From NCBI RefSeq assembly GCF_029542085.1, contig NZ_CP107036.1:5952001-6016000 (forward strand): a stretch of DNA of 64,000 bases, given 5' to 3'. This document shows, in pieces, positions 5,915 to 61,954 of this stretch. This stretch comes from Sphingobacterium sp. ML3W. Lineage in GTDB: Bacteria > Bacteroidota > Bacteroidia > Sphingobacteriales > Sphingobacteriaceae. A model generated the notes under the pieces. The model saw nothing but the letters and a program-made list of their open reading frames with translations. It made no database searches and was not told where the DNA came from. Each line of letters starts with the position of its first letter. Position 1 is the stretch's first letter. The position numbers were made by a program, and so were the translations under genes.

Positions 5915-8761
5915 TTAAAAACCAATATTTACACTCATGGCATAGCTACGTGGAGCCGGCACCGCAGTCCAGTCGGATGATAGATAGCTGATGCCACGCG
6001 TACGTTTGCTACCGCCCTGTGAATCTATTTGTGGTTCGATACCTCCATAGTTGGTCGTTAGCCACAGGTTGTTTCCTGTTAATGATAGCACGCAGCTTTT
6101 GAATAGGCCATTGGTTTGTTTCTTGGCCCAGGCACCTAAATCATAGGAGATGGTGACATTGCTCAAACGGATGAAATCGGCTTTCTCAATAAAATTACCA
6201 CGAGGGCCAGCATATTGGGCAAGTTCATTTGCTGTCGCAATATACTCCGGCGTGCCTGGTGTCTGCGTGGCAAGCAGTGCTTTGAGATCCTCGCCTGCCT
6301 TGAAGTTATTCCCTTGGCTGGCAACATTTCTATTGGAGATATTATAGACTTTAGCGCCTTTTGAATAGTTAAACAAAGATTGGATTCGGAGGTTATTGAC
6401 CAATTGAAGATTGAACCCAAATGATCCATTATAGGTAGGGAAAGGTTTACCCAATACCTGTGGTGCGCTTTCTTTAGGCCCTGTATAAACGCCGTTGCTA
6501 TTGAAATTGGCACCTTCGGATACACCTGTATAGAACGAGAATGCTGGGAGTCCCGGACGGATCAGATTGACCGTGTTGATAATGTCATTTCCACCTGAGC
6601 TGATTACTTTATTGGACTGGTGATTGAAAATCACGAAGAGATCCAGACTGTTTTTCTGATTACTGCTGGTAAATACACGGCTGTTATAAGTTACTTCAAT
6701 CCCTTTACCACGAATTTTACCCACATTTTCGGGATAGTCTCCACTCAAACTGGAGGGCCAGCCCAAAGAAGGCAATAATGTGGTATATACAATCGCATCG
6801 CGTGTGTTTTGCATATAGTAGGTAAAGCCCAAACGTTGTTTGAAAAAGCTGATATCAGTACCAATCTCAAACTCACCGGTGCGCTCAGGTTTGATATCAG
6901 GATTGCCTTTACGCAATGGTCTGACCAAGGTGCCAAACGAAGAGTTTTCAATAAGATAAGCCGTTTGCGCATCGTTTGGATAAGGTAAACGACCAGACTC
7001 GCCATAAGCGGCTCTTATCTTCCATTCATCGATCTTACCTTGCATAAATTCAAACGGTTTCACATTGTAGGCAACACTCACTGTGGGGTACCAGATACTG
7101 GCTACATTCCGACCGATCATATTAGATACGTCTCTTCTGACCCCGGTATTGATAAACAACTGATTGTTGTAGCTTAAAAATGCCTCACCATAGATACCAT
7201 GGGTACGTTTTTCGAAATAAGTATCGGTTGTACCTAAAATTTCAGCTGCCGAGGAGATGTTACTAATCCCCGGTACAGCAAAATTACGTACGCTGATACC
7301 GCTGACAGTTTCGGTAGATTTCGTCAACTGTGATAATAGTGCCAGATTCAGCTGCCATTTATCCGCTAGGGCGAAGTTGCGCGACAACTTGACATCCCAG
7401 TTGATATTCTGGTTTTTACGGTCACTGACCTGTTTGGCACCGGTACTGTTTGTGCCCTGTAGGTAACCATAGGGAAGATAGTTCAACCCATCGATCCGAT
7501 TGAGGTCAAGCCCCACAAGACTTTCCAGCTTAATATTAAAAGGAAGCGTATAGTTTAATTTGACACTTCCTGTAAAGCGGTCATTGGAATAACTTTTCTC
7601 AATAGCACGCCAGGTTTCTTCGGAAATAAAAGGCCAGGGCGTCTGATCGCGCATCAGATTCCAGATGGCATCATCACGTCCTGAGGCAGACTGTGGGATG
7701 TTCAGTTTTCCTTTGACATAGCCAGCGGTGAAACCCAGTTTGAAGTTGTCTTTAGTAAAATCGTATCCGGCACGAAAGGTCTGTCTATTGTCTTTGTTGC
7801 CCGGGATAATACCTGAAGTGGTATTGGAGTTGGCCGAAAAGAACACACTGTTTGCCTGATCAAACTGTGCCGATAAATTGGCATAGAACTGATTTTGATG
7901 ACCGCGATCAAAGAAGTTGTTCAGGGCATCGTTGTTGACATATTTTGTGTATTTATTGGCGAGTTCGCTGAAACCGCCGGTATATTTTACATTGACAGCC
8001 ATGCCTTTTTTACCGCTCAGGCCACGTTTGGTCTGGATAATAACGACACCGTTAGCTGCCTCTGCACCATACGAAGCTGCTGCTGCAGGTCCTTTGATCA
8101 CATCGATAGAAGCAATATCGTTCATCGGTAAGTCATTCAGCGCACTCATAGCTTCCTGTGAGGAGTTTACATCAGCAGTATTACTGCTACCGTAACGTAC
8201 CCCATCGATAAAGATCAGGGGATCACGTTCCATACTGAAGGTTGCTGCTGAACGAATATCAAAACGGATGGGCATACCCACTTTTCCATTGGTATTGTAT
8301 ACCTGAGCACCGCTAATTCTTCCGTTTACCAGTTCCGCTAGAGAAGAGGGATTACTTTTAGCGACAATATCTGCAGCATCAATATGATCGACATTGGTAC
8401 CAATTGCCCGTTTGCTCCGTGAATTGGCCAAACTTGCTGTGACTAATACTTCGTCCAGTGCAACTCCCGATTCAAGGTTAATCTCAATTTGCTGTCCGTC
8501 CTGTACTTTTGAAAAATAACGTTCGAAGCTTTTATAACCAACCATTTTAACCCGCAAGGTCTCCCCATTGTGAAGAACAAGATTAAATTTTCCGTTAGCG
8601 TCGGCGACGGTTCCGCTTTGTGGTCGCTCCTTGATGATTATACTCGCTCCCGGTACGATCGTACCCGTGCTCTTGTCATGCACGATACCCTGGATATTTT
8701 GTGCTTGAAGGGCAAAACAGGAAAGCAAAGTGATGCTCAAAAAAGTAAAAAATTGATACAT
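5915..8761 (-). CDS. SusC/RagA-family TonB-dependent outer-membrane transporter
   Basis: A TonB-dependent channel that imports large nutrients together with SusD. The order is signal peptide (ends about residue 20, LQAQ), carboxypeptidase-D-like plug extension (IQGIVHDKSTGTIVPGASI), a TonB-box-like DEVLVTAS, the plug (AELVNGRISGAQVYN, FIDGVRYG, IDVIKGPAAAASYGAEAANG) and the 22-strand barrel ending in NIGF. At 948 residues it is on the small side for SusC. It has no STN domain, so it is not expected to signal to a FecR protein. It is the first gene of a leftward operon with susD and is preceded by a good Bacteroidota promoter at 8823-8853. Confidence 0.93.
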   Translation of the reverse strand: MYQFFTFLSITLLSCFALQAQNIQGIVHDKSTGTIVPGASIIIKERPQSGTVADANGKFNLVLHNGETLRVKMVGYKSFERYFSKVQDGQQIEINLESGVALDEVLVTASLANSRSKRAIGTNVDHIDAADIVAKSNPSSLAELVNGRISGAQVYNTNGKVGMPIRFDIRSAATFSMERDPLIFIDGVRYGSSNTADVNSSQEAMSALNDLPMNDIASIDVIKGPAAAASYGAEAANGVVIIQTKRGLSGKKGMAVNVKYTGGFSELANKYTKYVNNDALNNFFDRGHQNQFYANLSAQFDQANSVFFSANSNTTSGIIPGNKDNRQTFRAGYDFTKDNFKLGFTAGYVKGKLNIPQSASGRDDAIWNLMRDQTPWPFISEETWRAIEKSYSNDRFTGSVKLNYTLPFNIKLESLVGLDLNRIDGLNYLPYGYLQGTNSTGAKQVSDRKNQNINWDVKLSRNFALADKWQLNLALLSQLTKSTETVSGISVRNFAVPGISNISSAAEILGTTDTYFEKRTHGIYGEAFLSYNNQLFINTGVRRDVSNMIGRNVASIWYPTVSVAYNVKPFEFMQGKIDEWKIRAAYGESGRLPYPNDAQTAYLIENSSFGTLVRPLRKGNPDIKPERTGEFEIGTDISFFKQRLGFTYYMQNTRDAIVYTTLLPSLGWPSSLSGDYPENVGKIRGKGIEVTYNSRVFTSSNQKNSLDLFVIFNHQSNKVISSGGNDIINTVNLIRPGLPAFSFYTGVSEGANFNSNGVYTGPKESAPQVLGKPFPTYNGSFGFNLQLVNNLRIQSLFNYSKGAKVYNISNRNVASQGNNFKAGEDLKALLATQTPGTPEYIATANELAQYAGPRGNFIEKADFIRLSNVTISYDLGAWAKKQTNGLFKSCVLSLTGNNLWLTTNYGGIEPQIDSQGGSKRTRGISYLSSDWTAVPAPRSYAMSVNIGF

Positions 8762-47103: not shown

Positions 47104-47244
47104 AGTGTTGTTTTTTTGTGGCTACAAAAGTCCGAAAATTATTGCTAAAGTCCATTGATAGACTGATTTATTTTGATACTACTAAAGAAATATGTGATTT
47201 TTTATTGACAAATGAGTGGGCAAAGTCCTTTCTTATCAGGTAGT

Positions 47245-47277
47245 TTTGTATTGCTCGAAAATTTTCCTGTATTTTTG
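47245..47277 (+). promoter_or_regulatory. Promoter of the histidine kinase gene
   Basis: A -33 TTTG at 47245-47248 and a -7 TATTTTTG at 47270-47277 are 21 bases apart. The transcript should start near 47284, so the longer reading frame from GTG 47216 cannot be the translated one. Confidence 0.6.
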
Positions 47278-47281
47278 CAGG

Positions 47282-48631
47282 GTGAATTTTCGATTTAAAA
47301 ATGCGGAACAGAAAAACAGTACCATCCTCATTTTCTGTTTGCTTTTGTTGCTGTTGATAGGTGGGGGGCTGCTCGGTATTATCCACCATAAAATAGATCG
47401 ACTGAATAAAAGAATATTGGTAGATTTTGCCGATGAAAACATGTTGCTGGTGAATAAGCAGCTGGAATTGTTACAACAGGAGCTATACACGTCTGAGAAA
47501 AGATTGGTTGATGCCGTACCATCAGGGGATATCCGTCGCGATTCCTTACTTATCCTCATTCCGGCTAGTCACTTGGACCGTGTCGATAATAGGATGTGGA
47601 TACTGCTTAAAACGCGTACAATACAACATCGTTTATACCATGTCTATGTCGATATTGAAAAATTAAATGCTTATTTCGCCAATCTCTATTTTGGAAGAAG
47701 GGCTTATTTTGAAATATATAGTGATAAGGGGATCTGCATTGTTTCACCTGAAAATCGAAAATGGGGGCGCCCGAAGGATAGTGATATTATTACACAGGGC
47801 AAGATCGTCAAGTCAGATTACCTAAAGCTGGATGTGATGGTTACTTCCTACCCCTGTTCCATTATTTTTGTGGGTGGTGAAATTCGGGTAAGCGTCTTGT
47901 TATTGACTATTGAGGAGGAAGTCCAGGAGGTGATGACCTATAGTATTTTACTTGGTGTTGGTTTGATGCTTGTAGCAATAGCACTTATCTATTTTAATGT
48001 GTTGGAGCGGCGCAAAATTCAGCAGCTCAAATTAATGGCTTTACAGCAGGAAAATGAATATACGCAGATGCGTCTAGTTCAATTGCGGCAACAGATCAAT
48101 CCACATTTTTTGTTCAACACGTTTGGTTCACTTCAATATCTCATCGGTAAAGATAATGATCTGGCCAAGTCATTCGTTGGCAAGATGACAAAGGTCTATC
48201 GTAAAATGCTGCGTACGGACGAGTCGGACTGGTCTTCGCTACAAGAGGAACTGGAACTGGCAAAAGCTTATTTCTTTTTGCAGCAGGTGCGTTTTGGAAT
48301 AGCGTTGAAGGATATGGAGATCTCCATTCCAATGGATGTGATGGGAGCGAAGCTACCACGTCTGGCCCTGCAGATGCTGGTTGAAAATGCGATCAAACAT
48401 ACACGGATTTCGACGGAAAATCCACTTCAGATCCATATTGTTTATCTATCGGATGCCAATATCATCAAAGTAAGCAACAATTGGCAGGCACGACAGGGGA
48501 CGGAGGTGGAAGGTGAAGGATATGGGCTTAACTACTTGGTATCTATGTATGCCCACTATACGTTGGATGGCTTTGACTTTGGAACAGAAGAAGGATATTT
48601 TTTTGTCAACTTACCCTTGTTGGATCGTTAA
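47282..48631 (+). CDS. LytS-type sensor histidine kinase
   Basis: A membrane histidine kinase of the HisKA_7TM-less LytS/YehU group (His_kinase + HATPase). I placed the start at GTG 47282, just after the promoter's -7 box; the frame is also open from GTG 47216. The order is a TM helix (LIFCLLLLLLIGGGLLGII), an extracytoplasmic sensor of about 160 residues, a second TM (ILLGVGLMLVAIALIYF), the phosphoacceptor NPHFLFN (His near residue 275) and the ATP-binding LALQMLVENAIKHTR. The likely partner is the LytTR regulator at 56335, beyond the protease/SusCD genes. Confidence 0.85.
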   Translation: MNFRFKNAEQKNSTILIFCLLLLLLIGGGLLGIIHHKIDRLNKRILVDFADENMLLVNKQLELLQQELYTSEKRLVDAVPSGDIRRDSLLILIPASHLDRVDNRMWILLKTRTIQHRLYHVYVDIEKLNAYFANLYFGRRAYFEIYSDKGICIVSPENRKWGRPKDSDIITQGKIVKSDYLKLDVMVTSYPCSIIFVGGEIRVSVLLLTIEEEVQEVMTYSILLGVGLMLVAIALIYFNVLERRKIQQLKLMALQQENEYTQMRLVQLRQQINPHFLFNTFGSLQYLIGKDNDLAKSFVGKMTKVYRKMLRTDESDWSSLQEELELAKAYFFLQQVRFGIALKDMEISIPMDVMGAKLPRLALQMLVENAIKHTRISTENPLQIHIVYLSDANIIKVSNNWQARQGTEVEGEGYGLNYLVSMYAHYTLDGFDFGTEEGYFFVNLPLLDR

Positions 48632-48656: not shown

Positions 48657-48690
48657 GCACGTGTTCATAGTTTCGATGCACGTGTTCATA
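48657..48690 (+). repeat. Direct repeat GCACGTGTTCATA, 21-base pitch
   Basis: Two identical 13-base copies (48657-48669 and 48678-48690) start exactly 21 bases apart, two helical turns. Paired direct repeats at that pitch are the known layout of LytTR-domain operators. The GTTCAT part agrees with the GTTnRK half of the AgrA-type site; the first bases do not. A LytTR regulator is encoded at 56335. Confidence 0.6.
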
Positions 48691-48863
48691 CGTTAGAAAT
48701 GCGGGCTCGTCCCTTTCGGGGTGATTCTGTACAATATTTTTAACAAATTTGGCTCCTGATCTAGGAATTTAATTGCAAGATTAACCTAATCTTATTCGGA
48801 TGAAATGATCTTCAGCTCAATAGCGCTTGACAAGAGACCTATCATGAGTAGATGATCGCTTCG

Positions 48864-48918
48864 ATGCCATTGAAAAACACACGGGGTGCAACAAATGCAT
48901 GTATGCTATTGAAAAACA
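48864..48918 (+). repeat. Direct repeat ATGCYATTGAAAAACA, 39-base pitch
   Basis: Two 16-base copies differing at one base (48864-48879 and 48903-48918) lie just ahead of the metalloprotease start at 48942. Their function is unknown; they fall in the probable 5' leader or promoter-proximal region. Confidence 0.5.
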
Positions 48919-48941: not shown

Positions 48942-51545
48942 ATGAACAACACTTATACCAAGCTAGCCCTTAGCCTCTTGTTTTCAGCAGGCCTCATGCA
49001 ATCTTGTTCTGTATTGCAAACTGTAGGTTTACGAAAAAAAGAGACTGTTACCTCTGCGAAAGATTCTACCGCCAAGAAAGATACGACGATTGCCTATGAC
49101 AAACTGTTTAAAGACGCGCGCGTAGATAGCGGCATGTTTGGTGTGATCCGAAAGGAAAATAGTTATTACTTTGAAATTCCATTGAAAAAAATGGGACAGG
49201 ACATTCTCCTGATCCAAAAATTGTCTTCCGTTCCTTTGGCGCTGAATGAGGCTGGTGTAAATAAGGGAATGAACTATGAAAATAAAGTCATTCGATTTAC
49301 CCTGCGCAAAGAGAAGAAAGAAGTATGGGTTTCGGAGATTAAACCTCAGGTAGAAGTGCCTAAAGCTGATGCGATTGCCGCATCAGTCTACGATAATTAT
49401 CGTCCTTCTTACATCGAATCGTTTAAAGTCGAGAGTTATTCAAAAGACTCAAGTGCTGTGGTGATCAAAGTCAATAAAGTGTTTGACGGATCGGAAAAGA
49501 GCTTTACAGATGTTTTCACCTCTTTGGGTTTAGGTACTTCTCCTAAAACCAGTATATCCGCGATCGAAGAAATTAAATCGTATTCCAATAATATTGTTGT
49601 GAAGTCGGTGTTGTCAACAAAAGTAACGGAAGGAAATGAATCGGTGCCGGTTTCATTAGAGGTTACAAGTAACCTTTATGAGCTGCCTGAAACGCCTATG
49701 GTGGCGCGTTTTGCGGATCCCCGTATTGGCTTTTTTACATCGCCACGTTGGTACTTTAACGACAAACAACAGGAACTGGATAAAAAAAATCTGGTTAACC
49801 GTTGGCGACTGGAACCGAAAGATGAGGACAAAGCTCGTTACCTGAAAGGTGAATTGGTAGAACCGAAGAAACCTATTGTTTTTTATCTGGATCCGGCCAC
49901 GCCAAAACAATGGCGACAAGCCATCATCGATGGGGTTCATGACTGGCAGGAAGCATTTGAGGTAGCAGGTTTTAAAAACGCGATTTTGGCAAAACAACAA
50001 CCGGATAGTATCAAATTTGATCCAGATGATGCAAATGTATCTTCTATTGTATACGCTGCGTCAGCGCAGGCCAATGCAATGGGACCATCTGTAGTGGATC
50101 CTCGCTCCGGAGAAATTTTGGAGGCGGATGTTATCTGGTGGCATAACGTGATGACGATCCTAAATAGCTGGATGCGGATACAAACAGGTATCGTGGATAC
50201 TTCAGTGCGATCGAATGTATTCTCGGACGAAAAAATGGCCCATGCTATTCGTTTTGTTTCTTCGCATGAGATTGGACATACTTTGGGTCTGATGCACAAT
50301 ATGGGTTCGTCGGCAAGTTTTCCGGTAGATTCACTCCGTAGCAAAAGCTTTACCGCAAAAATGGGCGGTACGGCACCATCGATCATGGATTATGCGCGCT
50401 TCAACTACGTGGCGCAACCTGAAGATGGTGTTGAACAGATTACACCCGTGATCGGAACCTATGACAAATATGCTATTGGATGGGCTTACCGCTGGTACGG
50501 CAAGCCGCAGCCTTGGGATGAAATACCTTTGTTGCGGAAAGAAATTGATGCCCATGTACATGACCCGATTTATCATTACGGTGAACAACAAGATTCCAAA
50601 AATATTGTGGACCCAAGGGCACAATCCGAAGATCTGGGTGATGATGCAATGAAAGCTGGTGAATATGGGATGAAAAATTTGCGTCGCATGATGCCGAATA
50701 TCATCAACTGGACCACAAATACGGGGGATGACTATTATCGTGCCGGTAAATTATACATGGGTGTCGTTGGTCAATGGTATGCTTACGCTGACCATGTGCT
50801 CAATAATATTGGTGGTATTTATCTTGAAAATGCTGTTTTGGGCGACCAAAAAAATGCATATAGCCCAGTACCCAAAGAGAAACAGGTAGCTGCGCTGGAA
50901 TATTTAAAGAAAAATGTGTTTTATATGCCGGAGTGGTTATTTGTTCCGGAACTGATGGCGAAAACTTTCCCTTTAAGAGATTCACCTATGGGACCGTTTG
51001 AATATGCACCTTATAATCTACAGCGCGAATTTCAATATGCCATGCTCTACAAATTGGTCAACGATGAGCGTCTATTGCGTATGGTCGAAATGGAGAACCT
51101 CTTTGGCGACAAGAAGGCCTGGAGTGCACCTGCATTTTTGGCATCGGTACGCAAAGAGATTTTTGCAAAAACGCTCAGTGGACAGGCGTTGGATCTTAAA
51201 ACACGCATGTTGCAACAGAATTACGTGGATGTACTGATGGTTTCTACGAATAAGTCCATGGAAAAATTAAATGCCAAGAAATTAGCAGGTGTCGAACAAT
51301 TGATCGAAGGAACTCAGCCTAATTTGTGCTTGCATCCGCATCATACAGCTTCTGCTCAAACGGGTTTACGTAATGTACATGTAACGGGAATGATCCGTAC
51401 ATCGGATATGCTGACGTATAAACGTGCTGAATTGTATGAGATATACCAATTGTTGAAACAGAAACAACGGACTGGAGACGCCACAACAAAAGCACACTAT
51501 ATGGATCTGCAATTGCGTATTGCAAATACCCTAGAATTGAACTAA
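48942..51545 (+). CDS. Zinc-dependent metalloprotease lipoprotein (DUF5117/DUF4953 type)
   Basis: An 867-residue outer-surface or periplasmic lipoprotein protease. The lipobox is MQSC (Cys22). The N-terminal DUF5117/5118-like part is followed by a metzincin-like zinc site, HEIGHTLGLMHN (H442, E443, H446, H452), and a downstream Met-turn candidate in APSIMDYARFNY. A DUF4953-type region follows. It begins the operon with the third SusC/SusD pair (34-base gap to susC), which suggests the imported substrate is a peptide or protein. Such proteases accompany SusC/SusD pairs in many Bacteroidota. Confidence 0.88.
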   Translation: MNNTYTKLALSLLFSAGLMQSCSVLQTVGLRKKETVTSAKDSTAKKDTTIAYDKLFKDARVDSGMFGVIRKENSYYFEIPLKKMGQDILLIQKLSSVPLALNEAGVNKGMNYENKVIRFTLRKEKKEVWVSEIKPQVEVPKADAIAASVYDNYRPSYIESFKVESYSKDSSAVVIKVNKVFDGSEKSFTDVFTSLGLGTSPKTSISAIEEIKSYSNNIVVKSVLSTKVTEGNESVPVSLEVTSNLYELPETPMVARFADPRIGFFTSPRWYFNDKQQELDKKNLVNRWRLEPKDEDKARYLKGELVEPKKPIVFYLDPATPKQWRQAIIDGVHDWQEAFEVAGFKNAILAKQQPDSIKFDPDDANVSSIVYAASAQANAMGPSVVDPRSGEILEADVIWWHNVMTILNSWMRIQTGIVDTSVRSNVFSDEKMAHAIRFVSSHEIGHTLGLMHNMGSSASFPVDSLRSKSFTAKMGGTAPSIMDYARFNYVAQPEDGVEQITPVIGTYDKYAIGWAYRWYGKPQPWDEIPLLRKEIDAHVHDPIYHYGEQQDSKNIVDPRAQSEDLGDDAMKAGEYGMKNLRRMMPNIINWTTNTGDDYYRAGKLYMGVVGQWYAYADHVLNNIGGIYLENAVLGDQKNAYSPVPKEKQVAALEYLKKNVFYMPEWLFVPELMAKTFPLRDSPMGPFEYAPYNLQREFQYAMLYKLVNDERLLRMVEMENLFGDKKAWSAPAFLASVRKEIFAKTLSGQALDLKTRMLQQNYVDVLMVSTNKSMEKLNAKKLAGVEQLIEGTQPNLCLHPHHTASAQTGLRNVHVTGMIRTSDMLTYKRAELYEIYQLLKQKQRTGDATTKAHYMDLQLRIANTLELN

Positions 51546-51579: not shown

Positions 51580-54500
51580 ATGAATAAGTTTTTAATACCG
51601 CTGACCTTCATGTGTGTGCAGATGGCACATGCACAGGAATCCAAGGAGCTGAAAGGAAAGGTACTGGATGCGGTCACATTAAAGCCAGTCGTGGGGGCGA
51701 CGGTTGTAGTCGAAAGTTCGGCAGTAGCCGAAGACATCGGTGTACCCAATCAGGTGCAACAGTCTGCATTGGGTTCATTAACTGATGCATCAGGCGAATT
51801 TCGCCTAAAAATTCCGGGAAACTTAAAATACGTAACCATTAGTTATGTGGGATACCAACGTATTCAAGTACCGGTATTTCAGGATCACAAGACGATTTTG
51901 CTGCAACCGAGTGGTGAATCACTGGATGAAGTAATCGTAACAGGGTATACCGACATCAAAAAACGTAAAAATACAACAGCATATAATAAAATTAATGTCG
52001 CTGACATCAAGCAGACAGGTGTTGCATCTATTGATGAAATGCTGGCGGGGCAGGTGGCTGGTCTACAGTTGAGTAATTTTAACGGTGGCCCCAATAGTGC
52101 TCCGCAGATCCGTATCCGCGGTACGGTATCACTCAATGGTACACAGGATCCATTGTGGGTTATTGATGGATTACCCATAGAAGGGACAGAATTGCCGAAT
52201 CGAATTGATAAGGATAACCTGAATAGTCTGAATAATCTTCCGATCGCAGGAATCAATCCCGATGATATTGCAGATATCACCGTATTAAAAGATGCAGCAG
52301 CAACTTCGATTTATGGTGCACGTGCTGCAAATGGTGTCATCGTTATTACAACAAAACGTGGTAAACCCGGACCGGCAAAATTGCAGGTCTCAGCGAATAC
52401 CTTTGTGACGGAACGCCCTGATTTTAGTCATCTCAACCTGATGAATGCCAATGAGAAAGTAGACTTTGAGCTGCTGATGGCTAACCGGACCGATTTAAAT
52501 TACCGGACGGACAAGGGAGCGGTGATGCGTATCCTGGACAAAGCAAACGCACTGGATGCTTATCGCTCCGGTGGATTAGCTGCTTTATCGCCAGAGATAC
52601 AGCAATCCATCAATCAATTGCGTTTACAGCAAACGGACTGGGGAAAAGAACTTTATCGGCAGGCCCTAAACCAACAGTATTCAGCATCAATCTCCGGGGG
52701 AAATGATGGGCATCGTTACTACTTGTCAAGTGGATTTTACGATGAGAAAGGAGCAACAAAAGGAACGGATCTACGTCGTTATTCATTGACGCTAAATAAT
52801 GATTTCAATATCAATGACCGGTTTAAAGCGGGAATCAATCTATTGGGGTCAGTTTCAAATAGACAGAATCCGATCCAGGATGATGACGCATTTACCAATC
52901 CAAGTAACTATATGCGCTTGGTCAATCCTTATTTGACCGTACGTGACCAATCGGGTAAGTATAATTATGATCCGGATATCGAAGGCTATGAAAAAGATAC
53001 TTATATTCCTTTTAACGCCGTAGAAGAACGGGAAAATACCAGATATGCATTAACAAACAAAGCTTTAAAGGCCATTGGTTACCTGGAGTATACCATTATT
53101 CCGCAATTGTCTTTACGCAGCGAATTTGGCTTGCAGTTTGACGAAAATAGCACGGAAAGATTTGCCGATCAGGAAAGCTATAATACCCGTAAATTGCGCG
53201 CTGCAACAAGGTATTATGATTCGACAACGAAAACGTACAAATACTTTTTGCCAACAGGAGGTAAGATCGAAAATACAAACAACAGTGTCTTCCAATACAA
53301 CTGGAAAACTTACCTCAAGTACGCTAAAACCTGGAATGATAAGCATGAGCTGGAACTGATGGGCGGAACAGAACTGCGTCGCAGTACAAATAAAATGACC
53401 GCGACCAAAGGTTTTGGATATAATCCGGCAACGTTGACAACACAGAATATTGTTTTTCCGAACAGCAACTATCAGGATGACGCTAGATTTGTGCAATATA
53501 AAAAAGGATTGATCGAAAACTCCTACGCCTCCTTCTACGGGAATGCGACCTATACATTTGACCGCAAGTACAATGTGTACGGTAGCATACGTTATGATGG
53601 GTCCAATATGTTCGGGGTAGATCCGAAGTATCGTTTCTTGCCGATCTGGTCTTTGTCTGGATCATGGAATGTGCTGGAGGAGGAATTCATCAAGGGAAAA
53701 ACAGTCTTGTCTGATCTCCGTGTGCGTGCCTCGTATGGTATTCAGGGGAATGTGGATCGCAATACCTATCCGTTTATTGTTGGAAAGTACGAAAATTCGA
53801 CTATACTTCCAGGTTATCCTGAAGGCTCAGTTGTGGTTGATATGCCTGCAAATGATAAATTACGCTGGGAACGCACAAAATCTTATAATGCGGGGATTGA
53901 CTTAGGTCTATGGAAAAATCGACTGAATATCACGGTTGATTACTACAATAGAACAAGCACAGACCTTATTGCAAATAGCGCATTACCTATGGAAAATGGC
54001 TTCCAGGACGTTCAGGTCAACTGGGCTTCAGCGCGAAATCAGGGAGTGGAGTTGACGATCTCGAGCCGTCAGATTCAGACCGAAAAATTCTCCTGGTCGA
54101 CGGATTTTAATATTGCACACAATAATAATAAATTATTGAAGGTCATGAATAATCCCAAAGCCTATGCGCCAGATACACAGGAAGGCCGTCCGATCAATGG
54201 GCTATATGTACTGGAAACGGCGGGATTGGATAAAGACGGTGTGATGCAGTTCAGAAATCAGGATGGATCAGTTTCGAGCTTTGAAGAATTTTACGGCTTA
54301 TATGATCCTTGGGCAGATTTCTTGCCAGGATATATGTCTCAAACAGACATGACAGCTGCCACCTATCGTTCCAAATTTAAATATTTGGGCAGCAAGGATC
54401 CGAAGTTTATTGGTGGTATGACCAACCGTTTCCGGTATGCGAATTTTGATCTGGCAATTTCAGCTGTGTTCAATTTAGAGCGTTGGGTAAGCCGTACACC

Positions 54501-54918
54501 GACTTATAATCCAGCTAAAGTAGATCGTGGGCAAAATTATACGAAGGATCTGTTGGCGGCCCTACAGGGCAAAGCTGCGTTGCCGGCATTGGGAAGTATC
54601 AGTTCGGAATTAAATGAGCGTTGGATGGCCTATGGCTGGATGGAAAGCAATGACCCAATCAATTCATTTAATCAGTATGATATCTGGGCCAAGAAAATGA
54701 GTTATGTCCGTATTAATAGCATTCGTTTAGGTTATACGCTCCCGGCAGCGGTGAGTAAAAAAATTGGCGCAAGTAATTTGCGTTTCAACGTTGAAGGACG
54801 CAACCTATTTGTTTTCGGCGCGAATTACGAAGGATACTTTGACCCGGAGACCTACGGCGGCTATTATGCACAACCAATCAGCAAATCTTTTGCCTTTGGT
54901 CTTTCAGCAAGTTTTTAA
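51580..54918 (+). CDS. SusC/RagA-family TonB-dependent transporter
   Basis: A 1112-residue outer-membrane importer. A short signal peptide ends HAQ (residue 19). The carboxypeptidase-D-like domain (ELKGKVLDAVTLKPVVGATV) contains an insert of about 25 residues before the SLTDASGEFRLKIPG part. The TonB-box-like LDEVIVTGYTDIKKRKN, the plug (PLWVIDGLPIEG, ITVLKDAAATSIYGARAANG) and the barrel ending in SASF follow. It has no STN domain, in agreement with control by the flanking two-component system rather than by FecR. It is co-transcribed with the protease and susD. Confidence 0.94.
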   Translation: MNKFLIPLTFMCVQMAHAQESKELKGKVLDAVTLKPVVGATVVVESSAVAEDIGVPNQVQQSALGSLTDASGEFRLKIPGNLKYVTISYVGYQRIQVPVFQDHKTILLQPSGESLDEVIVTGYTDIKKRKNTTAYNKINVADIKQTGVASIDEMLAGQVAGLQLSNFNGGPNSAPQIRIRGTVSLNGTQDPLWVIDGLPIEGTELPNRIDKDNLNSLNNLPIAGINPDDIADITVLKDAAATSIYGARAANGVIVITTKRGKPGPAKLQVSANTFVTERPDFSHLNLMNANEKVDFELLMANRTDLNYRTDKGAVMRILDKANALDAYRSGGLAALSPEIQQSINQLRLQQTDWGKELYRQALNQQYSASISGGNDGHRYYLSSGFYDEKGATKGTDLRRYSLTLNNDFNINDRFKAGINLLGSVSNRQNPIQDDDAFTNPSNYMRLVNPYLTVRDQSGKYNYDPDIEGYEKDTYIPFNAVEERENTRYALTNKALKAIGYLEYTIIPQLSLRSEFGLQFDENSTERFADQESYNTRKLRAATRYYDSTTKTYKYFLPTGGKIENTNNSVFQYNWKTYLKYAKTWNDKHELELMGGTELRRSTNKMTATKGFGYNPATLTTQNIVFPNSNYQDDARFVQYKKGLIENSYASFYGNATYTFDRKYNVYGSIRYDGSNMFGVDPKYRFLPIWSLSGSWNVLEEEFIKGKTVLSDLRVRASYGIQGNVDRNTYPFIVGKYENSTILPGYPEGSVVVDMPANDKLRWERTKSYNAGIDLGLWKNRLNITVDYYNRTSTDLIANSALPMENGFQDVQVNWASARNQGVELTISSRQIQTEKFSWSTDFNIAHNNNKLLKVMNNPKAYAPDTQEGRPINGLYVLETAGLDKDGVMQFRNQDGSVSSFEEFYGLYDPWADFLPGYMSQTDMTAATYRSKFKYLGSKDPKFIGGMTNRFRYANFDLAISAVFNLERWVSRTPTYNPAKVDRGQNYTKDLLAALQGKAALPALGSISSELNERWMAYGWMESNDPINSFNQYDIWAKKMSYVRINSIRLGYTLPAAVSKKIGASNLRFNVEGRNLFVFGANYEGYFDPETYGGYYAQPISKSFAFGLSASF

Positions 54919-54938: not shown

Positions 54939-56258
54939 ATGAGAAAAATAATTTATTTTGGAATGATCATGACTGCTAGTGCATTGACATCCTGCAATAA
55001 ATATTTAGATATAAAACCTGTAGGTACTGTGATCCCAGCTTCGGAAAGTGATTTTAGAGGCTTAATGACAAGCAGCTATACTGGTTTCCCTGCCCATAAA
55101 TCTTATCTGTCCTTACGTACGGATGAATTACTTCTGGACGAAAGTTCGACCGATGCGGCGAGGACCAAAGATATCTACCTGTGGAATGACCAGAATCCCG
55201 ATCCAACAACTACCGCGTATCCTTATCTGGCTTTTTACAAGAGTATTTTTTATACCAATCAGATCATCAGTACCATCGATGAGAAATTGACAAGCAACGC
55301 AACGGTGGATCAGATTAAAGGGGAAGCCTATCTCATGCGCGCTTATGCACATTTTGAACTGTTAAATCTCTATAGCGAGGTCTATGCCGCAAGCAATGTG
55401 GGGCTCCGTGGTGTTCCGTTGTCCACGAAAATTGATCTGGAACAACGGTTTGTTCCTGCAACCCTAGGTGAATCGTATGCGCAGGTGTTATCAGATATGG
55501 AAAAGGGAACGGCACTGCTTACGGTAGAGGATCAGGCCAAGGGTGTCAATTACCGCTTTAGCAAACGTGGTGCTTACGCGATGGAATCGCGTCTCCATTT
55601 GTATCGTGGCGAATGGCAAGTGGCAGCTGAAGCTGCTCAAAAAGCGTTGGCGATAAATAATAAATTAGTTGACCTAAACGCTACAGGAAGTAAGTTGCCG
55701 AATGATTTTGAATCAGAAGAGACGATTATGGCGCTGGAGAAAGTATCCATTCCAGAAGTACGTTCAAGTTCATTTATTTCGCCCGCTTTATTATCGTCTT
55801 ATTCAGAAGGTGATTTGAGAAAGGGTCGTTACTTCCAAAAAAGGGGTGCTGACTATGTTTCCCTTAAAGGTGGAGAAAACCGTTTCAACGTGAGCTTCAG
55901 AAATGCAGATCTTTATCTGACCGTGGCTGAATGTTATGCTCGTCTGGGCAATACAGCGGAAGCTTTAAAATATCTGACCGCACTAAAGAAAAACAGGTTT
56001 ACGGTCGATGCTTACGCCAAAGAAACCAAAGCTGACGCGAGTTTGTCCAAAGAACAATTGCTGGATGCAGTGTTGCTTGAACGCAAACGTGAACTTGCGC
56101 TGGAGGGTTTACGTTGGTATGATTTAAAGCGTACGACAAGACCAGCCATAACACATACTAGTTTTGGGAGAACAATGACTTTGCAGCAAAACGATCCGCG
56201 GTATGTGATCCGTTATCCACAGGAAGCGATCAATAATAACCCCGATCTATTGAAATAA
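54939..56258 (+). CDS. SusD/RagB-family lipoprotein
   Basis: A 439-residue surface lipoprotein with lipobox LTSC (Cys19). Typical features are CNKYLDIKPVGTVIPAS, IKGEAYLMRAYAHFELLNLY and the C-terminal LLERKRELALEGLRWYDLKR, ending RYPQEAINNNPDLLK. It lies 20 bases after susC. With the protease and SusC it should form a peptide-uptake unit (inferred). A terminator follows at 56288. Confidence 0.93.
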   Translation: MRKIIYFGMIMTASALTSCNKYLDIKPVGTVIPASESDFRGLMTSSYTGFPAHKSYLSLRTDELLLDESSTDAARTKDIYLWNDQNPDPTTTAYPYLAFYKSIFYTNQIISTIDEKLTSNATVDQIKGEAYLMRAYAHFELLNLYSEVYAASNVGLRGVPLSTKIDLEQRFVPATLGESYAQVLSDMEKGTALLTVEDQAKGVNYRFSKRGAYAMESRLHLYRGEWQVAAEAAQKALAINNKLVDLNATGSKLPNDFESEETIMALEKVSIPEVRSSSFISPALLSSYSEGDLRKGRYFQKRGADYVSLKGGENRFNVSFRNADLYLTVAECYARLGNTAEALKYLTALKKNRFTVDAYAKETKADASLSKEQLLDAVLLERKRELALEGLRWYDLKRTTRPAITHTSFGRTMTLQQNDPRYVIRYPQEAINNNPDLLK

Positions 56259-56334: not shown

Positions 56335-57060
56335 ATGGGATGGAATATATTGATTGTCGAAGACGAAGATTGGGCTTTTGTAGGCTTAAAGGAGATGTTG
56401 ACAGACCTTTATGGGGACAGCACATTGACCTTTACCAATGCAAAGGAGATTCAAGAAGCGGTGAAGGCCATCAATAAACATCATTTTGACCTGATTTTTA
56501 TGGATATCCATCTGATGGATGGACTGAGTTTCGAAATATTTAAGCAGGTGTCTATTGATGTACCACTTATTTTTACGACGGCTTACGAACAATATGCCTT
56601 GGAAGCTTTCCAGAATCAAGGTTATGCCTATCTGTTAAAACCTTTCGATAGCGAAGAGTTGGCACAAGCCATGAAACGTATCGAGCCGCTGTTGCCCAAA
56701 ACAGAGTTGCGTCTAAAGCAGCGCTTTCTGGTGAAGTATGGCAACTTCTTAAAGTCCTTGGCGATTACTGATATTGCCTACTTTATGGCAGAAGATAAAG
56801 AACTGTATGCGGTGGAAAAAGAGTCAGGTGTAGCCTATATTATTGAAGATAGTCTTATCCACTTGGTGACTCAGGTAGATCCATTCGTTTTTTTTCAAAT
56901 TAATCGGAAATTTCTTATTCGTGTTGATTCCATTCAGTCTATGTTAAAAATAAGTCGGAATAGAATTAAATTGGAACTAATTCCCCAAACTCCAAAGGGG
57001 ATTGATGTTATAGTTAGCGAAGAGCGTTCTCCAAATTTTCAGCGTTGGCTGGATCAATAG
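56335..57060 (+). CDS. LytTR-type response regulator
   Basis: A 241-residue regulator. The receiver domain (residues 1-120) has the phosphoacceptor D57 in DLIFMDIHLMDG, the acidic pair in IVEDEDW and the conserved Lys in LLKPFDSEEL. The LytTR DNA-binding domain covers about residues 135-240 (FLVKYGNFLKSLAITDIAYF, QINRKFLIRVDSIQSML). The nearest sensor is the LytS-type kinase at 47282. LytTR proteins bind paired direct repeats; the 21-base-pitch repeat at 48657 is the prime candidate site. Confidence 0.92.
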   Translation: MGWNILIVEDEDWAFVGLKEMLTDLYGDSTLTFTNAKEIQEAVKAINKHHFDLIFMDIHLMDGLSFEIFKQVSIDVPLIFTTAYEQYALEAFQNQGYAYLLKPFDSEELAQAMKRIEPLLPKTELRLKQRFLVKYGNFLKSLAITDIAYFMAEDKELYAVEKESGVAYIIEDSLIHLVTQVDPFVFFQINRKFLIRVDSIQSMLKISRNRIKLELIPQTPKGIDVIVSEERSPNFQRWLDQ

Positions 57061-57322: not shown

Positions 57323-60300
57323 ATGCACTCAACATTCAAATACATTCCTATTGTAGCATTAGCGCTGTCTAGTGCCAGTATGAATAAACTGTATGCACAG
57401 CAACGTTCCATTCAGGGGAAAGTGACCGATGCCAATACCGGGCAGGTACTTCCTGGCGTTAGTGTGCGGGTATCTGATCAAAATAAATCGACGCTGACTA
57501 ACGCTAACGGGGAGTTTACGATCAGTATCACAGGTAAAGATGACCCGTTCCTGGAGTTTTCTTTTATAGGCTACGAATCGCAACAACTGAGAGCCACGGG
57601 AAGTACAATCTCTTTGGCTTTGAAACCATCAAGTACAGATTTGGAAGAGGTGGTCGTAGTGGCGTATGGTACTTCTAAACGTACAAATATCACGGGGTCA
57701 GTAAGTACGGTCAGCAGTAAAGCAATAGAGAATAGACAGGTGTCAAGTATTTCGAAAGCGTTAGAGGGGCAAGTTCCGGGGTTGCAATCTGTTGCTTCAT
57801 CTGGTCAGCCCGGAACAGATGCAACAATACGTATTCGTGGGATTGGTTCTATTAATGCATCAAGTTCACCACTGATTGTTTTGGATGGTAATCCTTACGC
57901 AGGGGATATCAATTCTATTAATCCGAACGATATTCAGTCCATATCGGTACTAAAGGATGCCGCTTCCAGTGCGCTTTATGGATCCAGAGGAGCGAATGGT
58001 GTAATTATTATTACAACCAAATCTGGTAAAACATCAGGTGATACAAAGATCAACCTCAATTTTACACAGGGTTATTCAGGTCGTGCTGTTAAGGATTATG
58101 AACAAGTAACGACAGACGAATACTTCCAGTTGTATTGGGAGGCATTGCGTAATAAAAATTTAAGCAATGGCTTGAATGCTGCGCAGGCTGCTACGAATGC
58201 AAGCAGGACTTTGCTGGTTGATTTGAAGAAAAATCCTTATGGTAGCCAATTTCCACAACCAGTGGGTGTGGATGGTAAGCTGGTTTCAGGTGCTAAAACC
58301 TTATGGGATGATCCCTGGAAAGATGTGTTGCAGCGAACTGGTGTACGTACACAAGGGGATTTGAGCTTTAGTGGTGGAAGTGAAAAAAGTACCTATTATA
58401 TTTCGGGCGGATATCTTAATGATCAGGGCATGGCTATTGAATCGGGATTTAAACGATATAATTTGCGGGCGAATATCGATAGTAAAGTCAAGTCCTGGCT
58501 AAACGCCGGTGTTAATGTTGGCGGAAGTAGTACATTTCAAAAATATCCACAATCAGAAGATAGCAATACCGCTAATATCATTAATTTTTCACGGTTGGTT
58601 CCCTCTTTTTATCCCTATTATGAACGTAATGATGATGGATCTTATGTAGAGGAAAATGGGAAAAGAGTGTATGATTTTGGTGCGTATAGACCAAGTGCGG
58701 CTTCTCCCCGTAATAATTTAGCGGCAACTTTGCCCTTGGATAAAAATGATATTCGTAGAGAGAATATTTCGGCACGCGCGTATTTGGAAGCTTTGCTGAC
58801 AACGAATCTGAAACTGAAATCTACATACAGTCTTGATTATATCAATTCCAATACGCATGACTATGAGAACCCTCTCTTGGGATTTAGCGCTGAAACCTTT
58901 GGTACAGTAGCACGGTCGAGTGTACGGACAGTGGGACAGACATGGAATAATATATTAACTTATGAAAAGCAATTTGGCTTGCATCATCTTAATGTATTAG
59001 CTGGGCAGGAATACTATGCTTTTAATAGTAGCAATATCAGTGGTAACCGGAGTTATTTTGTATTGCCGGGATTCTACGAACCGGTTGCTGCGTCGCAGCT
59101 TGATGGTTTTACAGGTTCGAGTGTTGATTATAAACTATTGAGCTTTCTGGGGCGCTTAGAATATAATTACGACAATAAATATTATTTCTCCGGATCATTA
59201 CGGACAGATGGGTCATCCCGATTTAGCCCAGATAAACGCTGGGGAACATTTTGGTCCGTTGGTGGCTCTTGGAAATTGAAACAGGAAGATTTCTTAAAGG
59301 ATAACAGTGTGCTTAGTCAGCTGACACTTCGGGCGAGTTATGGTGGCCAAGGAAATGATAATCTGGGAACTTATTTTGCGTACCAGGGGCTGTATACGAT
59401 TGCCAATAGTCTTGGGAAAGGCGGTACATATACTGGTAGATTGGCTACTCCAGATTTAAAATGGGAAACTAATCTGAATTTAAATGTGGGTGTGGACGTT
59501 TCGGCTTTCCAGGACCGCGTCTCGTTAACAGTGGAGTATTTTGATAGAAGAAGTAAAGATTTGTTATTTACAATGCCAATGGCAGCATCTACCGGTTATA
59601 TTGGTTATGATGCAAATATAGGAGCAGTGAAAAATACAGGTATCGACGTGGATATCCGTACTGTTCCTGTTAAAAATGATAATTTTAAATGGAATTTGGA
59701 TATCAATTTCTCCCATTACAAAAACAAAATAACCTCTCTTCCTGATAATACCAAATCAATTATAAGTGGAACAAAAATTCTACGCGTTGGGGGCAGTGTA
59801 TTTGATTTTTATATGCCAGAATGGGCAGGTGTGAATCCGGAAAATGGTTTGCCGCAGTGGTATATTGCTGATAAAGATGGAAATAATACGGGGCAGAAAA
59901 CTTCCAAGTATAGTGATGCAGGTAGCTTTGTCGCAGGTAGTTCGCTTCCGGATCTTGTAGGCGGGGTGCAGAATAGTTTTACTTATAAGAATTTTGACCT
60001 GTCCGCGTTGCTTAGCTTTAGCCTTGGAGGACAAATACTGGATAATGATTATATTCAATTGATGCACAATGGTAATAATGTCGGTCGCGCCTGGTCAAAG
60101 GAGATATTGAACCGTTGGACACCTGAGAATACGCAGACAGATGTGCCTAAACTAACAACAGATGTCACTAACTGGACTTCGGCGTCTACACGCTTTTTGT
60201 ATAGTGGAACCTATGCGCGGATTAAAAATGTGAGCTTGGGCTACAGTCTTCCTTCGACTTTATTGCAGCGTATCCATATCGATAAAATACGCGTTTTTGC

Positions 60301-60430
60301 TACAGCTGAGAATCTATTGACATTTTATGGACACAAGGGTATGGACCCTGAGCAGACAGTAAATGGTACGACATATTTCCGTTATCCGGCAATGCGTACA
60401 ATTTCAGGTGGTGTACAGCTTGTGTTTTAA
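57323..60430 (+). CDS. SusC/RagA-family TonB-dependent transporter
   Basis: A 1035-residue outer-membrane importer. The signal peptide ends near LYAQQ (residue 26). The carboxypeptidase-D-like domain (SIQGKVTDANTGQVLPGVSV), TonB-box-like LEEVVVVAYGTSKRTN, the plug (ISVLKDAASSALYGSRGANG) and the barrel ending in LVF are in the usual order. It has no STN domain and no sigma/FecR pair nearby. Its gene starts 262 bases after the LytTR regulator. The next gene encodes its SusD partner; no enzyme gene follows, so its substrate is open. Confidence 0.94.
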   Translation: MHSTFKYIPIVALALSSASMNKLYAQQRSIQGKVTDANTGQVLPGVSVRVSDQNKSTLTNANGEFTISITGKDDPFLEFSFIGYESQQLRATGSTISLALKPSSTDLEEVVVVAYGTSKRTNITGSVSTVSSKAIENRQVSSISKALEGQVPGLQSVASSGQPGTDATIRIRGIGSINASSSPLIVLDGNPYAGDINSINPNDIQSISVLKDAASSALYGSRGANGVIIITTKSGKTSGDTKINLNFTQGYSGRAVKDYEQVTTDEYFQLYWEALRNKNLSNGLNAAQAATNASRTLLVDLKKNPYGSQFPQPVGVDGKLVSGAKTLWDDPWKDVLQRTGVRTQGDLSFSGGSEKSTYYISGGYLNDQGMAIESGFKRYNLRANIDSKVKSWLNAGVNVGGSSTFQKYPQSEDSNTANIINFSRLVPSFYPYYERNDDGSYVEENGKRVYDFGAYRPSAASPRNNLAATLPLDKNDIRRENISARAYLEALLTTNLKLKSTYSLDYINSNTHDYENPLLGFSAETFGTVARSSVRTVGQTWNNILTYEKQFGLHHLNVLAGQEYYAFNSSNISGNRSYFVLPGFYEPVAASQLDGFTGSSVDYKLLSFLGRLEYNYDNKYYFSGSLRTDGSSRFSPDKRWGTFWSVGGSWKLKQEDFLKDNSVLSQLTLRASYGGQGNDNLGTYFAYQGLYTIANSLGKGGTYTGRLATPDLKWETNLNLNVGVDVSAFQDRVSLTVEYFDRRSKDLLFTMPMAASTGYIGYDANIGAVKNTGIDVDIRTVPVKNDNFKWNLDINFSHYKNKITSLPDNTKSIISGTKILRVGGSVFDFYMPEWAGVNPENGLPQWYIADKDGNNTGQKTSKYSDAGSFVAGSSLPDLVGGVQNSFTYKNFDLSALLSFSLGGQILDNDYIQLMHNGNNVGRAWSKEILNRWTPENTQTDVPKLTTDVTNWTSASTRFLYSGTYARIKNVSLGYSLPSTLLQRIHIDKIRVFATAENLLTFYGHKGMDPEQTVNGTTYFRYPAMRTISGGVQLVF

Positions 60431-60460
60431 ATCAGTCGAATATTTAAAGTAAATAATAAT

Positions 60461-61954
60461 ATGAAAATTACGAAAATAAAACTTATTTATATTCTTTTAG
60501 GGCTTTCCTCCGTCACTACTTCCTGTAAGGATAAACTAGATACTGTCCCTACGACATCAGTGACAGAAGAACAGATTTATAAAGATACACGTGGTGTTGC
60601 AACGGTTGTAAATGGTACCTGGAAATATTTAAATGATACCTATTTTACCTTTGCAAATCCAGGTTATACATCTGTAATGCGTACAAGTGATGCCATGGGA
60701 AGCGATGTGGCAGTGACAACCAAATACGGTTATCGCGACGCCTATGGTTTTACAGAGTTAGATAACCGCCGGTCTTACCGGGTATCATCTTTTTGGACCT
60801 TATTTTATAAAGTAATTGATAATACCAATAATGTAATCGCGAAAGTGGATGGGGTAACTGGCGATATCGCGGATAAAAACTTTCTGAAAGGACAGGCAAA
60901 AGCATTGCGTGCATTTATTTATCTTAATCTGGCTTCATTCTATCAATTTAGCTATTTAAAAGACAAGAATGCGAAGGCTGTCCCGATTTATATCGAACCT
61001 AGCACCCTGCAAACGAAAGGTAAACCAAGAGCTAGTTTAGAGGAGTTGTACCAGCTTATTGTGAAAGATCTAAAAGATAGCGAAGTTTTATTGGCATCGG
61101 CAACTAAAGTGGAAAAATATCAGATTAGTATAGATGTTGTTTATGGTCTTCTCGCCAGGACATATCTACAGATCGGGGAATGGAAATTAGCTGCCGAATA
61201 TGCAACTAAAGCGGGAGCTGCGCATAATCTAATGAGCGCTTCGGATTATCAGGCTGGGTTTAATGACGCACAAAATTCAGAATGGCTCTGGGGACATCTG
61301 CAAACTACTGAGCAGAATACAGCTAGTTATACGTTTCATTATATAGATGTTTCTTCTTCAGCCTCTTATTATTATAGTTTTATGGCTGATCCATATTTTA
61401 AGGATCTATTTGATAAAGATGATGTCCGCTATGCCTTGTTTGAATGGGATGGTTTAAAAGGCCGTGAAGGATTTTTGCGCTACAAGAAGTTTAAAATGAA
61501 GACGAATCAAATAGGGGATATTGTGTATATGCGTTCGGCTGAAATGTTGCTGATTGCAGCAGAGGCTTATGCACGTGCAGGTGAGGTTGATAAAGCAGTA
61601 GCTGCGCTGAATAAATTGCGAAAGGCACGTAACGCCAAGTTATTTGAAGGGAGAGATGGTGCAACACTAATTGCAGAAATTCTAGTAGAACGTAGAAAAG
61701 AGCTTTGGGGCGAGGGGTTTGCATTATCTGATATTATTCGTACCCAAGGTAAGGTTACACGAAAGGCTTTTTTAAATGATAAAGGAGAACCGATACAGGT
61801 GCAGGTTGTTGACGAAGAAGGGAAAACAAAATTGGTCGATGGACAAGGCCATCGGGTGATCAAATTCTCTGACGGTTCTAACTTTGTGAATAATAGTCCA
61901 TATTATCTATTTGCTATTCCCAATACAGAATACGAACAGAATCCAAATTTGTAA
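60461..61954 (+). CDS. SusD/RagB-family lipoprotein
   Basis: A 497-residue surface lipoprotein with lipobox TTSC (Cys22). SusD features are LDTVPTTSVTEEQIY, KGQAKALRAFIYLNLASFYQ and the C-terminal ILVERRKELWGEGFALSDII, ending AIPNTEYEQNPNL. It lies 30 bases after susC. No glycoside hydrolase or protease gene follows; a strong terminator ends the unit. Confidence 0.93.
   Translation: MKITKIKLIYILLGLSSVTTSCKDKLDTVPTTSVTEEQIYKDTRGVATVVNGTWKYLNDTYFTFANPGYTSVMRTSDAMGSDVAVTTKYGYRDAYGFTELDNRRSYRVSSFWTLFYKVIDNTNNVIAKVDGVTGDIADKNFLKGQAKALRAFIYLNLASFYQFSYLKDKNAKAVPIYIEPSTLQTKGKPRASLEELYQLIVKDLKDSEVLLASATKVEKYQISIDVVYGLLARTYLQIGEWKLAAEYATKAGAAHNLMSASDYQAGFNDAQNSEWLWGHLQTTEQNTASYTFHYIDVSSSASYYYSFMADPYFKDLFDKDDVRYALFEWDGLKGREGFLRYKKFKMKTNQIGDIVYMRSAEMLLIAAEAYARAGEVDKAVAALNKLRKARNAKLFEGRDGATLIAEILVERRKELWGEGFALSDIIRTQGKVTRKAFLNDKGEPIQVQVVDEEGKTKLVDGQGHRVIKFSDGSNFVNNSPYYLFAIPNTEYEQNPNL

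Follow-up and report, generated by a model that had tools for sequence, protein, structure and literature searches.

What is the function of a 13-bp sequence that occurs twice in the gap between a sensor kinase gene and a protease gene of Sphingobacterium sp. ML3W? We addressed this question in a 64,000-nt stretch of the chromosome (contig NZ_CP107036.1, positions 5,952,001 to 6,016,000), hereafter the window, and in related genomes of the Bacteroidota. The genes of the locus lie on the + strand. Upstream of the repeats is a gene for a LytS-type sensor histidine kinase (47216..48631; PF06580, E 2.4e-20), in which the HFLFN H-box and the N-box are visible and the start codon is uncertain. The first gene 3' of the repeats encodes a zinc metalloprotease with DUF5117, DUF5118 and Met-zincin (48942..51545). 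It is followed by genes for a SusC/RagA-family TonB-linked outer-membrane transporter (51580..54918), a SusD/RagB-family lipoprotein (54939..56258) and a LytTR response regulator (56335..57060), and these four genes apparently form an operon. The regulator (P0005), the presumed binder of the repeats, combines a PF00072 receiver with a PF04397 LytTR domain (E 2.8e-11). Its structural model (mean pLDDT 76.9) matched the folds of full-length ComE and a Bacillus LytTR domain (3d6w, 4cbv), with a TM-score of 0.86 on the target for the Bacillus domain. Another SusC/SusD pair lies 3' of the regulator gene (57323-61954 of the window) and is found in the same place in many, not all, relatives. As judged from the sequence comparisons described below, the repeats are very probably the operator of the locus's own LytTR regulator, which would activate the protease/SusCD operon and thereby itself.

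The 13-mer GCACGTGTTCATA is present on the + strand at 48657-48669 and 48678-48690, 21 bp apart from start to start. An earlier note on this DNA had described such a pair in the kinase-protease gap, and we recovered it exactly at 48657 and 48678. The note's remark that the window holds no other copy agreed with our search, which found none elsewhere in the window at up to 2 mismatches. No other exact direct repeat of at least 13 nt has a pitch of 13-60 in the window, and the 34-bp arrangement of the pair is single in the 6.55-Mb genome. Since 20 dinucleotide-shuffled windows yielded one such repeat in total, the pair taken alone is about a 1-in-20 event; this doubt is removed by its conservation in relatives. 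The pair is real, but the note had missed a diverged third unit, GCGGGCTCGT, and the array consists of three units with a pitch of 21. At this locus, in the window and in the relatives, the units are 10 nt long, are separated by 11-nt spacers and read RCGNGTTCAT or NNTTCACTCC. Units 1 (48659..48668) and 2 (48680..48689) both read ACGTGTTCAT and lie within the two 13-mers; unit 3 occupies 48701..48710. Among the aligned close relatives, 8 of the 10 columns of unit 2 are invariant. Unit 3 has drifted while retaining RCG and TC, and its CTCGT variant (ATCGT in one) is common to the close clade; two near-perfect units with a diverged third are thus the state in the window's clade. The third unit has remained intact in relatives of the S. 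multivorum type (e.g. GCGCGTTCAT, ACGTGTTCAT), and three good pitch-21 units are present in the gap of relatives with 70-73% identical kinases (e.g. ACGTGTTCAT, ACGCGTTCAT, GCGCGTTCAT). When the window was scanned with a profile that was built with its own units included, the array's two pairs scored 32.1 and 31.5 and the next best match 9.4.

The order kinase-gap-protease-SusC-SusD-LytTR is kept in Sphingobacterium, other Sphingobacteriaceae, Flavobacterium- and Chryseobacterium-like genomes and two Marinifilum-type genomes, and the locus with its pitch-21 repeat spans several orders of Bacteroidota. Nearly everywhere, the gap retains 21-bp direct repeats with a TTCA(C/T) core, though the identity of the regulator drops to 34%. 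Of the 36 Sphingobacterium loci with kinase, protease, SusC and SusD (the window counted in), 35 had two or more core matches 21 bp apart; L073 of this genus has a single clear unit. Pitch-21 repeats were also present in all 13 loci, from six genera, that were located via SusD in other Sphingobacteriaceae genera, where the five-gene order is kept, and in 11/11 loci of the Flavobacterium/Chryseobacterium type (units such as CATTCACTCC-N11-CACTCACTCC). These loci are related by descent, and the counts do not represent independent events. A separate search of named genomes identified further loci, in Chryseobacterium, Algoriella, Myroides, Marinifilum and Ancylomarina, that share this gene order and the repeats.

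The preference for this pitch was evaluated against shuffled sequences. Among offsets 12-39, the mean best self-match of the gap over 10 nt peaked at offset 21 in both clades compared, reaching 9.68 of 10 in the close clade (shuffles 5.94, sd 0.20) and 8.06 in the distant Sphingobacterium (shuffles 5.87, sd 0.22). A unit profile was trained on Sphingobacterium alone and then applied to other genera and Flavobacteriia. At pitch 21, it scored 16.2 in the other Sphingobacteriaceae genera (shuffles -5.35, sd 1.04) and 8.1 in the 11 Flavobacteriia loci (shuffles -8.0, sd 1.3), and other pitches scored below pitch 21. The mean major-base frequency was 0.95, 0.95 and 0.83 in the three units, 0.70 and 0.75 in the 11-bp spacers and 0.57 in the upstream flank, and the units remained more conserved than the spacers and flank even with near-identical sequences collapsed. 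Since the repeat is kept at 21 bp before the same genes across orders, we consider it real and very likely functional. A tandem array of 21-bp units, CGGATTCATTCCGAAGGGCTA, was observed in another genus of the family (G190:C1:706380-706556); its period is divisible by three, so it is probably a coding repeat.

Several loci serve as natural controls. The repeat is absent from L247 and L248, two protease-SusC-SusD loci with no kinase or regulator nearby. In the Flavobacteriia locus L246, where the protease is absent and the regulator precedes the kinase, TTTCACTCC...GTTCACTCT are found at pitch 21 between kinase and SusC; this rearranged locus (genome G522) occupies 5978-7390 in locus orientation. 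In the genome of ML3W, the unit-pair pattern at up to 2 mismatches occurred at this locus only, the sole additional match being units 2-3 of the window, and at 3 mismatches the counts did not exceed those of the reversed-pattern control. A genome-wide regulon was rejected on these grounds. The TTCACTCC pair was likewise rejected as a phylum-wide LytTR box: exact pairs occurred in 8/385 genomes, and in five of these the pair belonged to this locus, suggesting that the operator is mostly dedicated. The relaxed pattern CGNNTTCAY-N12-CGNNTTCAY was too loose, with off-locus matches as frequent as in the control. Across 80 LytTR loci of named genomes, there were 20 TTCAYTCC-like pairs with a pitch of 21, compared with 1-5 for every other pitch between 14 and 30, and most pitch-21 pairs with near-perfect units were located in the kinase-protease gap. 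Comparable pairs in promoter-like positions among other LytTR loci were found only in L099 and L112, indicating that the operator follows the kinase/protease/SusCD system. The TTCACTC(C/T) pairs of these two (at 10753 in L099 and 2752 in L112) have a pitch of 21 and belong to LytTR kinase/regulator loci with different neighbour genes. The putative site appears to be dedicated to a single protease operon.

LytTR operators typically comprise two 9-11-nt repeats with an 11-13-nt spacer and have no common consensus (PMC4847170). The 10-nt units and 11-nt spacers of this array fall within these ranges, and a linked regulator with a LytTR domain is indicated by PF04397, the fold match and co-occurrence. 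Compared by pitch and TTCA(T/C)TCC core, the nearest known operator is that of E. coli YpdB, closer than that of AgrA. In the yhjX promoter, YpdB binds GGCATTTCAT-N11-GGCATTTCAT in a sequential and cooperative manner (PMC4847170). The two arrangements have in common 10-nt direct repeats, a pitch of 21 and a TTCAT core, and the YpdB A site continues TTCATTCC, as the TTCACTCC units do in the relatives of this locus. Both systems also couple a LytS-type kinase and a LytTR regulator to a transport target. They differ in the 5' half of the unit, which is RCGNG here and GGCAT in YpdB, the GGCA half of the YpdB-type site being without a match. Furthermore, three units are present in the window's clade, and the target here is a protease and a SusC/SusD importer, with the regulator gene inside the apparent target operon.

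The similarity to S. aureus AgrA and S. pneumoniae ComE lies in paired direct repeats about two helical turns apart, upstream of a promoter; full-length ComE is also among the fold matches of the regulator model. However, the AgrA unit is ACAGTTAAG, which has little beyond GTT in common with the units of this locus, and no peptide pheromone gene was seen. By profile, BtsR of the E. coli BtsS/BtsR system is among the closest named regulators (NF008677, 65.8 bits, E 3.7e-18), although the match is far under the equivalog cut-off of 246 bits, and its target gene and unit sequence are different. The earlier note had proposed a candidate LytTR operator of the AgrA/ComE type and, as a check, a motif search at this position in related genomes. 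The search found the repeat kept in the three groups of loci counted above, and the regulator at 56335 has both the LytTR domain and the fold, which supports the operator claim. Regarding the type, the paired direct repeats at two-turn pitch stand, but the units share the GTT core only and YpdB is the nearer relative.

In Bacteroidota, the -7 consensus is TAnnTTTG, and a sigma-70-type promoter scan is uninformative in this phylum. A block 3' of the array (TACAATATTTTTAACAAATTTGGC; TGTACAATATTTTTAACAAATTTGG at 48728..48752, + strand) is nearly invariant in the loci of 19 close relatives and is a putative promoter. It contains two candidate -7 elements, TATTTTTA (48735-48742) and CAAATTTG (48744-48751), each with 5/6 matches to the consensus, which lie 29 and 38 nt past the core of the last unit. 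In Flavobacteriia, a 5/6 or 6/6 match lies 38-39 nt past the last core in 11/11 loci. If the -7 element at 38 nt is the right one, the promoter-proximal units would be centred at about -50 and -71 and the pair at about -60. The repeats of AgrA are centred near -60 (PMC4227749), and with this choice of the -7 element the same position of the array would favour activation. The presumed leader has some further features. AAGATTAACCTAATCTT (48777-48793) is a 7-bp inverted repeat with a 3-nt spacer; several relatives retain it as GATTAGCCTAATC, and the similar ATTAACCTAAACTTAAC is located near the protease start in Flavobacteriia. In addition, ATGCCATTGAAAAACA (48864-48879) and ATGCTATTGAAAAACA (48903-48918) are 39 bp apart, and the close relatives in the alignment retain GAAAAACA of the first copy.

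We also considered a LytTR operator that either represses transcription or serves mainly another of the genome's LytTR regulators, and regard this as unlikely. Many LytS-type kinases are encoded in the genome (17 scored matches), and LytTR sites lack a single consensus, so which LytTR protein binds is not provable by sequence alone. Against another regulator, the repeats track the locus, are missing without its kinase and regulator and stay when the regulator moves, and the genome has no second site. The sequence by itself would be compatible with either sign of regulation; the units lie upstream of the conserved promoter-like block and not across it, however, which speaks against repression.

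It is very improbable that the element acts as RNA, namely as a hairpin or terminator with which the kinase transcript would end. Such a structure is visible in the window, where CGGGCTCGTCCC around unit 3 is able to pair with the 5' flank GGGACAAGTCTG and the CACGTG cores allow the two 13-mers to pair with each other, but it was rejected for not being conserved in relatives. The single-sequence folds differ among the 19 close relatives, conservation is lowest in the flank, and the consensus fold retains only a weak 7-bp stem (-4.1). No compensatory changes were seen across relatives, no terminator-like site or Rfam match was found, and the folding z was only -1.4. A chance repeat or a duplicated fragment without function is a negligible prospect: an exact repeat of this size did arise in one of the 20 shuffled windows, but even where the DNA is otherwise diverged, the pitch and core are kept between genera and outside the family.

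The reading that we favour is that of an operator for the locus's own LytTR regulator; direct binding, activation, the signal, operon-length transcription and autoregulation are the inferred parts of it. The signal sensed by the LytS-type kinase would be extracellular and would probably consist of peptides or of something else that the locus produces; the kinase would then phosphorylate the LytTR regulator. The phosphorylated regulator would bind adjacent 21-bp-spaced units, which share one side of the helix and lie immediately 5' of the promoter, and recruit RNA polymerase to the protease-SusC-SusD-regulator operon. Since the regulator gene is in the activated operon, the regulator would also amplify its own synthesis by positive autoregulation.

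LytTR kinase/regulator pairs are common in Bacteroidota. In the open-licence literature, we found no paper mapping a LytTR operator in this phylum, and searches with the motif string returned only unrelated papers. The array would be an operator of a known kind and a sharply defined, broadly conserved LytTR example in a phylum for which none was found described. More tentatively, and as a possibility rather than an expectation, it may represent a widespread and dedicated LytTR circuit of Bacteroidota in which the kinase senses the products of the metalloprotease that the locus exports and the regulator, on a two- or three-unit phased array, drives the protease, SusCD and itself. Such a self-amplifying loop of degrading, sensing and importing would stand apart from the known control of SusCD genes by SusR, hybrid two-component systems and ECF sigma factors. 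With its readable consensus, its single target and loci that have naturally lost the repeat as controls, the array is a precise candidate operator that can be tested. It also provides a conserved, apparently unstudied protease-SusCD locus with a regulator and a likely regulatory logic.
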